A stretch of DNA of 64,000 nt, taken from NCBI GenBank assembly GCA_027604185.1, contig JADGKB010000047.1:39120-103119 (forward strand). The letters are read 5' to 3'. Position numbers and translations under genes: made by a program. Within the stretch, counting starts at the first letter, position 1. The number at the start of each line of letters is the position of its first letter. The notes beneath the pieces are model-generated. The model made no database searches. It saw only the letters and a list, made by a program, of their open reading frames with translations, and was not told where the DNA came from. Shown here one piece after another: positions 36,088 through 62,822 of this stretch. The DNA comes from Boothiomyces macroporosus. Taxonomy: Eukaryota > Chytridiomycota > Chytridiomycetes > Rhizophydiales > Terramycetaceae.

Positions 36088-36894
36088 TTATTGATTGTCG
36101 CCATTGTCTAATTCGGTTATTATGCTTTTGATCAATGCATTGTATCTAGAATTATGTTCTAAAGCTTTCTCAAAAAACACTAATGCCAGATTCGGTTTAC
36201 CCATTCGGATATTCAGTGTCCCCAAGTTGTAGTTATACAGACAGGATAAATCTGGGTTAGTGATCCCGGAGATCAGTTCCTTGTATCTTTGGAGATACTG
36301 CACTGATTGCTTTGGATCTGATATCTCTGCATTTGAAGAGTTTATCCACAGGTTCATAAACAGGTCGTTTGTTTCCTGAAGAATACCGGGCTTAATGTCA
36401 ACTGATTGCAACACCAGTCTCATGAAATCTGTATTTATCCCCATCTACGTTATTCACACTTACCTATCCTTAGTTGTACCTTACCTAATGTAAATATTCA
36501 ACTGACCTTGGTCAACTAAAATTACCTTTGAATTATCAATCATATCTATAACTTCAAATCCTTTTTCCATATTCTTCAATTCTACACAGCAATTAAAGCA
36601 CAGTAAAAGCAACTTTTCCTTGAATATCGAGTCGATGTTCACCAAACTATAATCGAGCGCTTTCTGATACTCGCTGTTGTTGTAATAGTACAATGCGGTA
36701 TTGAATATATTTGATTTGATGGGTTGGTTTGTTAGGATGCTTTGGATCATGCTTATATTTGACTCTATGCGAGGTTTAAGGATATCAGGTGATTGCGGAA
36801 GAGCAGCTTGAAGAATTTCTAGTGATTTTTCATAATGTTTCTTTTCAAATTCCAGTTTTGCAGATTTCAGTTCTTGCATCAAAATAAAGAGCAT
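36088..36894 (-). CDS. TPR protein, CNOT10-like (tentative)
   Basis: Two coding exons (36894-36526 and 36444-36088) give about 241 aa from ATG 36894. Helical TPR pairs are clear: FEKKHYEKSLEILQAALPQS, FNTALYYYNNSEYQKALDYS and YNYNLGTLNIRMGKPNLALV with FFEKALEHN. The last resembles the CNOT10 repeat with its pattern NLG...K.NL...FFKKAL. CNOT10 is a CCR4-NOT deadenylase module subunit, but it is usually much longer, so the identity is tentative; SRP72-like or other TPR proteins are alternatives. The exons are separated by 81 nt made of four abutting intron units (see separate entry). Both flanks are phase 0, so the whole block must go to keep the frame. Confidence 0.62.
36445..36525 (-). other. 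Stack of four abutting minimal introns (81 nt)
   Basis: In gene sense the block divides exactly into four units, each GT...AG: 36525-36507 (19 nt, GTAATT...GACCAAG), 36506-36485 (22 nt, GTCAGT...TTACATTAG), 36484-36464 (21 nt, GTAAGG...CTAAGGATAG) and 36463-36445 (19 nt, GTAAGT...ATAACGTAG). No base remains between units. Each has a TTGAC/TTAC/CTAA/ATAAC-like branch motif 4-8 nt before its AG. The block contains in-frame stops. Removing all 81 nt joins codon AAG to ATG in phase 0 and keeps the downstream TPR frame; removing fewer units does not. Confidence 0.8.
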
Positions 36895-57090: not shown

Positions 57091-60000
57091 TTATTGAGCA
57101 ACATTGTATTTAAACACCCAGTCGGTAATAATGGCATCAACACCAGCTTGTTTCTGTGTAATTATACTGTTCATGTCAAAATTCATCTCGCCAAAAGTCG
57201 CCAATAAAAGTCCACTCTCTTTGACTGTCTGTACAAGAATTGGCATTTCAACCTGCATTAGAAATAGTTACAAATGGCTGTGCAAAGCAAATCATGCCTA
57301 ATAAATCACACTTTTTACAGAACTTTACGGCTTCCTTGATTGATGAATCGTTTTGGAATCCGCAATAAGTCCTAAAGAATACACCATAGTTGGGCTGCTT
57401 CCAGTTCATTATTGTGCACAATGATTGGTTGAAGCTACTGAAAATGATACTGCGCTGGTTGGAATGGTCGTATACTATTTGCAAAATGGAATCGACAAAT
57501 AAATTCATATCGAGACCAATGTCAAGCTGGTCTTGAGATGGATACTTGAGAATGACAGAGACCCCAATCGAAGTTGGTAGTCGCTGAATTAAAAACAAAG
57601 ATACCTTTAATACTTGTTCAAATGTCATGAATGATTGATAAATTGAAGATGCTAAATCAGATGGGTTTCCAGAAGCGGTAAATAACTTTGGAGGGTTGGA
57701 TTGTTCAAATAGCGATTTTGCTTGTTGGAAGTCTAAAAAGTTTAGTGGTATATTCAATCCATTGACCAACACGTAAGAATGAGGGTAAACAACCAGTTGA
57801 CCATCTTTTGTCGATTGAACCACAAGCTCTACATATTCTTCAGCCAAACTACTGGCAGTGATTAGAGAATGGATTGGTTCCGTACTAGTCTTTGGATTAG
57901 GATTCGAGACAACAGTAGTGGATTTCCAATAAGTTTCAATTTTACCTCCAATTAATAAACTAGGGTGATTAAATGGTTTGATGATTGATGCAGAGAAACA
58001 AAAATCTCCAATGACTTTAAGATGAGAATCAAAGATGGATACGATAATCTCTTTTCCTTGGATACCGTCCCTGCTAGTCTTTAGTATTGAAAGTAATTGT
58101 GTGTTTGTGCAACTAGCTCTTCCAATCGCTTTAGTTCCAAACGCAGGGTAAATGTCAAATTCAAATGAAATCAAAGATAAATCATCCACGGTCCAATTGA
58201 AAGGAGTGATTGCATCTTTGAGCGGCAAATTAGCAAAGAGGGCTAAATCTACTTCTGGTTTACAAGTGATTTTCAATCGGAGAGAAGATAATTGTCTGCT
58301 TCCAAACAGATTAACAGGCTCTTTTCTGCAGCATCCTCCATACTCTCCAATTTGAATCTGAACCATGACTTTGTTGTCCAAGTAGTGATGACCATAAATG
58401 CGAAGTGGGATAATTGGGGGAGGTAGTGATAATGATGGAATGTCTTCAATATCCAAATCTCCTACTTTATCTAGATTCATTGGTTCGCCCAAGAATACTT
58501 CAGATGGCGCTAATGGCTTGGTCTTTACTTCTTCCATAATCACGTCTTGCTTTACTTTTAATAGTGCAGCAACTTTTACATGCCCTCTATATAAGGCATA
58601 AGTCCAAGGCAGCCTAATATTAGAACCCATTCTGCTAGTTGGAATCGATATGATTCACTTACCATCCTTCTTGATCTTTGGTAGAGATGTCGCATCCAGC
58701 ATCAAGCAATATCCGAATACACTCCAAATGGCCTTCTTGTGCGGCAAAGAATACTGCAGACCAACCATAAAACGAGTCTTTCTTTTCAATATCACTCTTG
58801 AAATCAATCAGCCGTTTCGTAATAACATCCTTTCCTTCTCGACAAGCAATATGAAGCGGATCTAATCCATCCAAATCAGTCAAGAGGGAAACATTCTTTG
58901 AAAGAAGTAAATCAACAATTTCCAGGTGACCATACTGACAAGCGATTGATAATGGAATGCTTCCATTCGGAGTGACAGGTTCAATGCTTGCACCTTGCTC
59001 AATCAGAGTATAAGCACACTTTGTGTGTCCTCCAATAATGGCATTGATCAATGGAGAGTTTTCATCCCTAAATTAACAATGCTCACCTGTCAATTGCATT
59101 CACGTTTGCACCTTTGCTCAATAAAAACAGTGTAACCTCATCATGCCCATACAGACAAGAGTAGTGCAAAGGAGTTCTCCCATAAACATCAACGGCATTA
59201 ATATCTCCTCCTCTTTCTACTACTAATTTGATGATTTCCAGCTTTCCTTCAATTGCCAGTTCATGCAAACACGTAGCATCACTGATATCATCAGTAAGAT
59301 TCAAATCAACGCCATATTCTAGTAATACCAATAAACATTCAATGCTTGTTTCTGTACAAAACGAGAGAAAGCACTTTGAATAGAATTCCTTGTCCAAGTT
59401 GTAATCCTTCTTTAACCACTCTTTCAATTCAAGATGATGCTGATGAGTGAGTATTGGTTGGATTTCCGACAATGCGTGTCTCAGCAGATGCTTTGAATTT
59501 GTAGACTCTAGGGATGTTTCCAATAGTTTGTCCAGTTCAATTAAAGTGGAGGCACACTGATCAGCTAGATCTGTTAGTACTTCAGTATTGAAACAAGGTT
59601 GCACTTCGATCTGCCTAGAAAGATAAATCTAGTTATATTATTCTTACCTATGTTAGCATATATTACCTCTTTTGTCGATGACTTTGCCCTCTTGTCCCAC
59701 TTTTTCAAGATCTTTCTAAACCCAGTCGCATTCAACTGAACGAATTTCTGCAGTTTGGCCAAGTCCAATTGAAACTGTAAAAAAGCCTCTTTGATATTTT
59801 CCAGTGTATTTCGTTCCTTTGCTTTTTGCTTCTTTTTGTTTAGCGTTTCCAAGCGCAACTTGAACTCTACTTCCTTTTGCAAATAAAAAGTATTCACCTG
59901 GGTTACTAATGGTTACCTATAATCAGTTGCTAATGAACCTGCGGTTAAAATCGGATACCTGGGTTAGTCGCAATTACCTTTTCCAGCTCTCGTTCTAACC

Positions 60001-60184
60001 GGTAAAAGAAGGCGGTCTTGTTACTCTCATCTCCAGGCAGCGACACTTCATGCGATGAAATAATCTTTTTCAATCCCTGTGTTAACTATTCGTACTTTGT
60101 AATTAATGTAATAGTGAGTTGCCCATTCCTGAGAGACGGAAGAGATGTATTTACCAAACTGTATTAACAATCAATTACCTTCAT
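57091..60184 (-). CDS. GDE1: SPX-ankyrin-GDPD glycerophosphodiester phosphodiesterase
   Basis: Eight exons (60184-60179, 60158-60096, 60076-59978, 59897-59667, 59628-59087, 59067-58663, 58613-57272, 57252-57091) give 949 aa; the coding length is 2850. The SPX domain reads MKFGKYISSVSQEWATHYYI, NYKGLKKII, ELEKVNTFYLQKEVEFKLRL and KKWDKRAKSSTKEIYLSRQI then EVQPCFN. Six or more ankyrin repeats follow (YGRTPLHYSCLYGHDEVTLF, GSIPLSIACQYGHLEIVDLL). The C-terminal region ends with a GDPD-type barrel (VTISVILKYPS-like IGVSVILKYPSQDQLDIGLD, VDAIITDWVFKYNVAQ). In yeast Gde1 releases glycerol-3-phosphate and choline from glycerophosphocholine and responds to phosphate. Introns are 20, 19, [80 stacked], [38 stacked], 19, 49 and 19 nt. 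The first coding exon is just ATGAAG. Confidence 0.93.
59629..59666 (-). other. Two abutting minimal introns (38 nt) in the SPX domain
   Basis: In gene sense, 59666-59648 (19 nt, GTAATA...CTAACATAG) is followed at once by 59647-59629 (19 nt, GTAAGA...ATAACTAG). Removing both joins KSSTKE to IYLSRQIEVQPCFN, which reproduces the SPX family sequence KE-LYLSRQVEVQPC. Removing only one leaves a +1 or +2 frame error, since 19 is not a multiple of three. Confidence 0.87.
59898..59977 (-). other. Stack of four abutting minimal introns (80 nt) in the SPX domain
   Basis: In gene sense: 59977-59959 (19 nt, GTAATT...CTAACCCAG), 59958-59939 (20 nt, GTATCC...TTAACCGCAG), 59938-59917 (22 nt, GTTCAT...CTGATTATAG) and 59916-59898 (19 nt, GTAACC...GTAACCCAG). 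Every unit starts GT, ends AG, and carries a branch-like motif just before the end; no base lies between them. Removing all 80 nt joins ELEK to VNTFYLQKEVEF, matching the conserved SPX helix. Units 1 and 4 share their last eight bases, TAACCCAG. Confidence 0.9.
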
Positions 60185-60252: not shown

Positions 60253-60397
60253 AATGGGAATACTTGCAAATTTCTGGTTTCAATGAGCAATATCTTGTTT
60301 GTTATTCAGATTGAATTCAATCTCTTTAATATGCTATAGCAGAGTCTCTAGTCTAGTTTATTTTGCTGGTTATTGAAATCTAGTGAATAACTATAGA

Positions 60398-60471
60398 CCT
60401 AGTTTAATCTCGTAACTACAGCACCTAGTTTAATCTCGTAACTACAGCACCTAGTTTAATCTCGTACTTGG
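60398..60471. repeat. 26-bp tandem repeat
   Basis: Two full copies and one 22-bp partial copy of a 26-bp unit beginning CCTAGTTTAATCTCGTA, at 60398, 60424 and 60450. It lies between the divergent GDE1 and apple-like genes (60185-60582), a region with no gene. Confidence 0.88.
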
Positions 60472-62511: not shown

Positions 62512-62733
62512 GTTTTATAGGATTAGTGTTGTTATTGACTATTTTGGTTGTAATGTTTTATAGGATTAGTGTTGTTATTGACTATTTTGGCTGTAATGTT
62601 TTATAAGATTAGTGTTGTTATCGACTATTTTGGCTGTAATTTTGTTATCGACTATTTTGGCTGTAATGTTGTTGTCGACTATTTTGGCTGTAATGTTGTT
62701 GTCGACTATTTTGGCTGTAATGTTGTTGTCGAC
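62512..62733. repeat. Compound minisatellite, 43-bp and 27-bp units
   Basis: Three 43-bp units (starting 62512, 62555 and 62598, beginning GTTTTATAGGATTAGTG) pass into 27-bp units (62641, 62668, 62695 and a partial at 62722, beginning GTTGTTGTCGACT). Both unit types share GACTATTTTGGCTGTAAT, so the 27-bp form looks like a deletion derivative of the 43-bp form. It fills most of the gap before the second apple-like gene. Confidence 0.9.
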
Positions 62734-62822
62734 CATGTGGATTATACTGTTGCATAATATTAACACTATTATGGACCATGTTTACTATAGATGTTTATGG
62801 GTAAAAATCGCGTGTGGTGTTT

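Follow-up and report, generated by a model that had tools for sequence, protein, structure and literature searches.

One known model of intron gain is the tandem duplication of segments that carry AGGT. As described in excerpts of the cited papers, recursive splicing in Drosophila and mammals employs AG|GT zero-length exons as ratchet points at which large introns are removed in segments (PMC2773006), while stwintrons, reported from fungi, are nested introns in which an internal intron splits a splice signal of the external one and the two are spliced consecutively (PMC9024468, PMC7138796). The pygmy introns of chlorarachniophyte nucleomorphs are, again from an excerpt, mostly 18-23 nucleotides (nt) long, most commonly 19, and two of them in Lotharella oceanica are GC-AG introns (PMC4035089). 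Here we analysed a 64,000-nt stretch of the soil chytrid Boothiomyces macroporosus (the window) and the rest of its genome. A GDE1/PHO81-type gene in the window contains an 80-nt insert that probably consists of four complete U2-type introns of very small size, arrayed end to end at zero-length exons and removed stepwise. The phenomenon is wider than this single locus.

The gene model was run without any intron-length preference and gave a product of 942 amino acids encoded by 9 exons, with inserts of 20, 19, 80, 38, 19, 49, 21 and 19 nt. The elements considered below are as follows.

57091..60184, minus strand: GDE1/PHO81-type gene with SPX domain, ankyrin repeats and GDPD (glycerophosphodiesterase) domain, from gene model, homologues, Pfam and alignment.
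59959..59977, minus strand: unit 1 of the 80-nt insert, 19 nt, GTAATTGCGACTAACCCAG, from the sequence.
59939..59958, minus strand: unit 2, 20 nt, GTATCCGATTTTAACCGCAG, from the sequence.
59917..59938, minus strand: unit 3, 22 nt, GTTCATTAGCAACTGATTATAG, the weakest of the four, from the sequence.
59898..59916, minus strand: unit 4, 19 nt, GTAACCATTAGTAACCCAG, from the sequence.
59648..59666, minus strand: unit 1 of a second stack, 19 nt, from gene model and alignment.
59629..59647, minus strand: unit 2 of the second stack, 19 nt, from gene model and alignment.
58614..58662, minus strand: 49-nt insert that does not tile, a counter-example, from gene model and alignment.

The 80-nt insert (59898-59977, minus strand) lies between the flanks ...GAAAAG and GTGAAT... 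and consists exactly of GT...AG units of 19, 20, 22 and 19 nt, confirming to the base the division proposed in a first-pass annotation of this DNA; within it are three AG|GT sites at which an acceptor is juxtaposed to a donor. That annotation had also judged such regular internal steps improbable by chance, and in simulations of random inserts with stack-like composition only 831 of 6,000,000 80-nt GT...AG inserts could be tiled by 18-23-nt GT...AG units (1.4e-4). The protein join created by complete removal, ELEK^VN, is invariant across an alignment of eight sequences (seven chytrid database proteins and the translation from the window), and the annotated B. macroporosus protein P0001, the best database match of the product, has the join ELEK^VNTFYLQKE. 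A homology-blind automatic local parse of the insert placed three units slightly above four (0.4 vs -1.0); we read four because protein homology decides. The size and branch motif of single introns, claimed for each of the four units, are found in units 1, 2 and 4; unit 3 is weaker, with the donor GTTCAT and no TAAY branch.

The 38-nt insert of the same gene (59629-59666) is a second stack of 19+19 nt, a tiling with a chance of 0.03. Its join, STKE^IYLSRQIEVQP, occurs in P0001 and, slightly changed, in most of the aligned chytrids, and P0002 lacks the stretch. Although P0001 omits the 80-, 38- and 49-nt inserts, it retains the 21-nt intron (57584-57604) as seven codons, VSLFLIQ, and ends early at the last GDE1 intron, of 19 nt (57253-57271). 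Tiny introns are misannotated in this public gene model, and because of the kept intron and the premature end we regard it as an unreliable witness to splicing.

Introns in this genome are very short. A simple codon and splice-site model was built from 244 kb of the genome and afterwards applied to 294 kb, including most of the contig to which the window belongs. Under a flat length prior the introns called by this model pile up at 19-22 nt, a range that holds 280 of the 287 introns of 18-25 nt in the later run, the single-intron boundaries being model calls. When introns were fixed at 18-23 nt and exons of any length were allowed, the 294 kb contained exons of length 0 four times and exons of 1-60 nt never; all four zero-length junctions lie in GDE1. 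Pairs of high-scoring units in the same sample numbered 3 at gap 0 and 9 across gaps 1-30, too few to be used alone.

The genome-wide search for abutting units that the first-pass annotation had proposed was carried out with junction patterns, whose rows include overlapping matches and duplicated segments. A gap fitting a 19-22-nt unit was present in 20 of 41 rows for TAAC...AGGTA...TAAC, and a gap of intron size in 42 of 90 rows for TAAC...AGGTA...TAAT (search total 91) and in 37 of the first 100 of 265 rows for TAAT...AGGTA...TAAY. A control with AGGAA in place of AGGTA gave 14 of 76, near the flat expectation of 10. Part of the spacing peak is due to single introns that chance to follow an exonic AG. 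Triple AGGTA junctions at intron spacing were found in 25 rows at 15 places, against 2 rows at wider spacing; among the 15 places, C25 is possibly an unrelated repeat, and C1 and C173 are copies. Some matched strings occur twice in the assembly (C1:393045/C173:12127; C20/C31; C65:7734/26564; C49:6403/C100:7998), as segmental duplications or unmerged haplotypes.

Loci were then fetched around pattern matches: 20 spanning 1.4-2.1 kb, a further 20 with 241 bases each, and 8 with 281-651 bases. An automatic parser was given 39 pattern junctions, including two from the window, and returned at least two units for 23, a single intron for 14 and no parse for 2. Final curation was by hand parsing guided by frame and homology, and in several cases this was preferred to the best automatic parse: four units rather than three in GDE1, three rather than two in C14a, nine rather than eight in MGM101, eight rather than five in PWWP, and two, as in the other run, rather than one in C22. 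L031 and L041, each with two units in one of two automatic runs, were left out. The curated set for the genome comprises 34 stacks with 115 units and 81 internal junctions, with 2 to 9 units per stack: stacks of two, three, four and five units number 14, 9, 5 and 2, and every size from six to nine is represented by a single stack. Nearly all units (112/115) are 19-22 nt long. Donors are GT in 112 of the 115 and GC in 3, all GCAAG, and three internal junctions are AG|GC. Whole inserts span 38-179 nt, and the units in them are complete and abutting.

Homology supports the joins of several stacks. The alignment of the MGM101 product, whose array has nine units (179 nt), with the MGM101 chain of a solved structure spans the array with 67 ungapped residues, and alignments are likewise ungapped at the join for PEX1 (3 units), a ubiquitin-conjugating fold (3) and GID8 (2). 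Protein and profile lengths across the join are equal for PWWP (8 units) and TPR (5), both above the Pfam cut-off, and for WD40 (7) and Sel1 (3), both below it. Support is weak for ING (E 0.0037, below the Pfam cut-off) and transportin (E 0.018), and for MATH the matched stretches of protein and profile differ in length. Three peptides of one set of nine (METTL-like, C5b and C8b) had no Pfam match, nor had one of a second set of eight, from the gene with the 81-nt stack described below; a PDB search gave no match for the MATH peptide and nothing relevant for the METTL-like one. Stacks outside the homology tests rest on open frames. After removal of the whole stack, both sides were open in one phase in the 33 stacks checked (13-21 codons), and we reject an exon hidden between units; a second frame is also open in a few of them (C14a, C12, C22), and partial removal was compared only in the two automatic parse runs. 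With the stack left in, a stop falls in all three frames in 28 of the 33. We also reject an assembly artefact: the 34 sites are spread over many contigs, with the reservation that near-identical segments do exist in the assembly.

The units have the features of U2-type introns, namely GT/GC...AG ends and a branch-like TAAY upstream of AG, and two U2 small nuclear RNA (snRNA) genes above the cut-off are present in the genome. Stack units that had not been selected by a pattern have a median score of 2.29, compared with -5.0 for chance AG|GT...AG|GT windows (p 1.9e-7) and 3.87 for single introns, and 22 of 34 such units have T[AG]AY near the acceptor. Diverged arrays of seven and eight units still tile fully. 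A neighbouring gene bears on whether tiny introns that lie close together leave separately.

C47:31159-31199 (L002, outside the window): EF-hand gene with 19-nt introns on either side of a 3-nt exon (ATG), from Pfam.

The 3-nt exon restores the EF-hand calcium loop DYNKDGELDGHEL, for which Pfam gives 22.7 bits with the exon and 13.3 without it (cut-off 25). The better EF-hand match with this exon suggests that tiny introns close to each other are spliced out independently. Near 1221 on the plus strand of L033 there may be another AG-ATG-GT case (21+3+20 nt), where the frame is open with or without the ATG; and at C47:10818-10876 (L004, outside the window) a thioredoxin-like gene has a 15-nt exon between two 22-nt introns.

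Several results weigh against the view that every insert is made of units removed one at a time. The 49-nt GDE1 insert, where homology is strong, is not divisible into 18-25-nt units, and a further insert does not tile.

L039, C22:141.8k, minus strand: oxidase-like gene (weak DAO match) with a 60-nt insert in which 19+18 nt are stacked and followed by AATG and then 19 nt.

Homology is weak at this locus, and because the frame demands the loss of all 60 nt, one step there must be longer or nested. The proposal of the first-pass annotation that longer inserts are built from, or removed as, modules therefore does not hold absolutely. Of 70 model inserts of 24-125 nt, 31 allowed a new parse into introns of 18-25 nt and the other 39 did not, many of the latter resembling prediction errors; several of the re-parsed inserts we take, from recognised protein families, to be single tiny introns plus a few codons, and one is presumably a GC-AG intron in a VPS45-like gene. 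Fourteen of the 37 parsed pattern junctions are single introns after a chance AG, and the curated stacks come mostly from patterns that demand a good junction. Internal units that no pattern had selected score below single introns (median 2.21, 15 scored, vs 3.87; p 9e-5), and T[AG]AY stands near the acceptor in 6 of 16 of them, 5 of the 16 being the alike MGM101 units, vs 226 of 287 single introns. Since internal units are weaker and often without TAAY, some may be skipped or removed jointly with a neighbour. Finally, a backward-pattern control returned more rows than the two-unit patterns (221 vs 41, 382 vs 265 and 181 vs 91), and for the three-junction pattern 10 rows vs 25 forward; because this control differs in word content and is uninformative on spacing, we relied on the spacing and on the GA control.

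Every unit of the 80-nt array has a donor, a branch region and an acceptor to itself, at the spacing of about 20 nt with which this fungus splices. Because adjacent units share a junction, and two spliceosomes presumably could not act on both at once, we infer that the units are removed stepwise, one after another. The order of removal would be free: each step would leave AG|GT ends and a remaining array that could still be spliced, and because such ends would persist after each removal the mRNA would be independent of the splicing path. The array could be real and intron-derived and nevertheless follow mixed paths, with a donor jumping to any later acceptor and several units leaving as one intron of 40-180 nt; every path would then yield the same mRNA, and selection on internal sites would accordingly be relaxed. 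In favour of this, internal units are weaker than single introns, and the 49-nt GDE1 insert and a 41-nt piece of L039 do seem to exit as longer introns. We consider mixed paths unlikely all the same, given that single introns are nearly confined to 19-22 nt, that diverged seven- and eight-unit arrays keep their full tiling and that introns only 3 nt apart appear to be separately removed.

The protein is equally well served if the whole insert is one ordinary 80-nt intron, spliced from first donor to last acceptor, in which the internal GT, AG and TAAC words arose by chance. This is very improbable in view of the rarity of chance tiling and of the second tiling insert in the same gene, and it is further opposed by the genome-wide excess at intron size, in both spacing and triple junctions, and by the fact that no class of about 80 nt stands out among model introns. 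We give just as little credence to nested twin introns, in which one unit would interrupt the splice signal of another and impose a fixed inside-out order: fungi do have stwintrons and related complex introns, according to excerpts of PMC9024468 and PMC7138796, and the sequence of the 49-nt GDE1 insert would allow a 24-nt unit lodged within a 25-nt one, but in the curated stacks each unit borders on the next and no unit splits another. The best explanation, supported here, remains the one first suggested from the sequence of the window: four introns that directly adjoin one another, exonless at their junctions, in a genome geared to introns of about 20 nt.

The boundaries of the stacks suggest how an array of complete introns might arise. 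An exonic G occupies position -1 of the first donor in 29 of 34 stacks vs 127 of 287 single introns (p 3e-6), an exonic AG precedes it in 18 of 34 vs 67 of 287 (p 5e-4), and GT follows the last acceptor in 10 of 34 vs 34 of 287. Alike units are present in three of the 34 stacks: five near-identical 20-nt units in the MGM101 array, identical first two units in C8a and three alike last units in the ING-like stack. Likeness of units within as opposed to between stacks gave p 0.086 overall, being clear in these three and absent in GDE1, where the unit similarity comparison found no relation among the four units of the 80-nt insert. The shared TAACCCAG ends of its units 1 and 4 had been taken as a hint of duplication, but when units of different stacks are paired, 12.5% of the pairs are equally or more alike, and we reject these two units as duplicates. 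Judged from unit likeness, tandem duplication evidently accounts for three stacks. The MGM101 array (L029, C1:351613-351790) resembles a 20-nt satellite of introns. Arrays could grow in two ways, through tandem duplication of whole units and through the arrival of new introns at AG|GT sites: an intron boundary beside an exonic AG, or beside another intron, would recreate such an insertion site, and if introns are gained there, stacks would grow, each unit adding another site. We also put forward, with slightly less than even confidence, that the spliceosome here is so tuned to about 20 nt that introns lengthen only by whole units, that arrays grow in satellite fashion up to nine units and that the genes carrying them need serial, path-independent splicing.

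A probable third stack in the window lies in another gene, for which neither homology nor a Pfam match was found.

36445..36525, minus strand: probable stack of 19+22+21+19 nt, 81 nt in all, from open frames on both sides.

By eye, a short tandem repeat of about 26 nt (CACCTAGTTTAATCTCGTAACTACAG) lies upstream of the GDE1 start at 60397-60470, and an intergenic minisatellite with units such as GTTGTCGACTATTTTGGCTGTAAT at 62515-62745.

These arrays address two questions, the source of new introns and the lower size limit for introns that a spliceosome can process. With up to nine introns in a row, some of them near-identical neighbours, they allow locus-by-locus tests of intron multiplication, of the proto-splice-site idea and of stepwise splicing. 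Gene-prediction programs that set a lower bound on intron length would overlook or misinterpret such arrays, a possible reason why they have gone unnoticed. If a tuned spliceosome and growth by whole units are both true, intron gain and recursive splicing would be caught in the act, and could be counted, on one genome.

Among titles and abstract openings of the open-access literature on abutting introns, zero-length exons, very short introns and introns of Boothiomyces or Terramyces, a body that leaves most subscription journals and preprints outside, we found no such arrays. The likenesses to described systems are partial, and those that follow rest in part on excerpts of the papers cited. 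Nucleomorph pygmy introns share the size range of the introns described here but belong to the reduced nuclei of endosymbionts, whereas these lie in a free fungal nucleus, and the excerpt of PMC4035089 makes no mention of stacks. Like stwintrons, the arrays place more than one spliceosomal intron at a single position, and do so in a fungus; stwintrons, however, are nested, whereas these are complete, abutting units, up to nine of them. The tandem alike units of three stacks, and sites rich in AG and GT flanks, resemble features of tandem duplication and of introners (PMC9860276), which are near-identical introns scattered across many genes. Under the tandem-duplication model it is exon segments that are multiplied, whereas here whole introns appear to be multiplied in place. 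With recursive splicing the arrays share the combined AG|GT acceptor-donor without an exon inside the removed stretch. There it subdivides large introns, a role that does not arise in inserts of 38-179 nt; here the segments are of about 20 nt, up to nine in number and the same size as single introns. The arrays are best read as recursive splicing in miniature.
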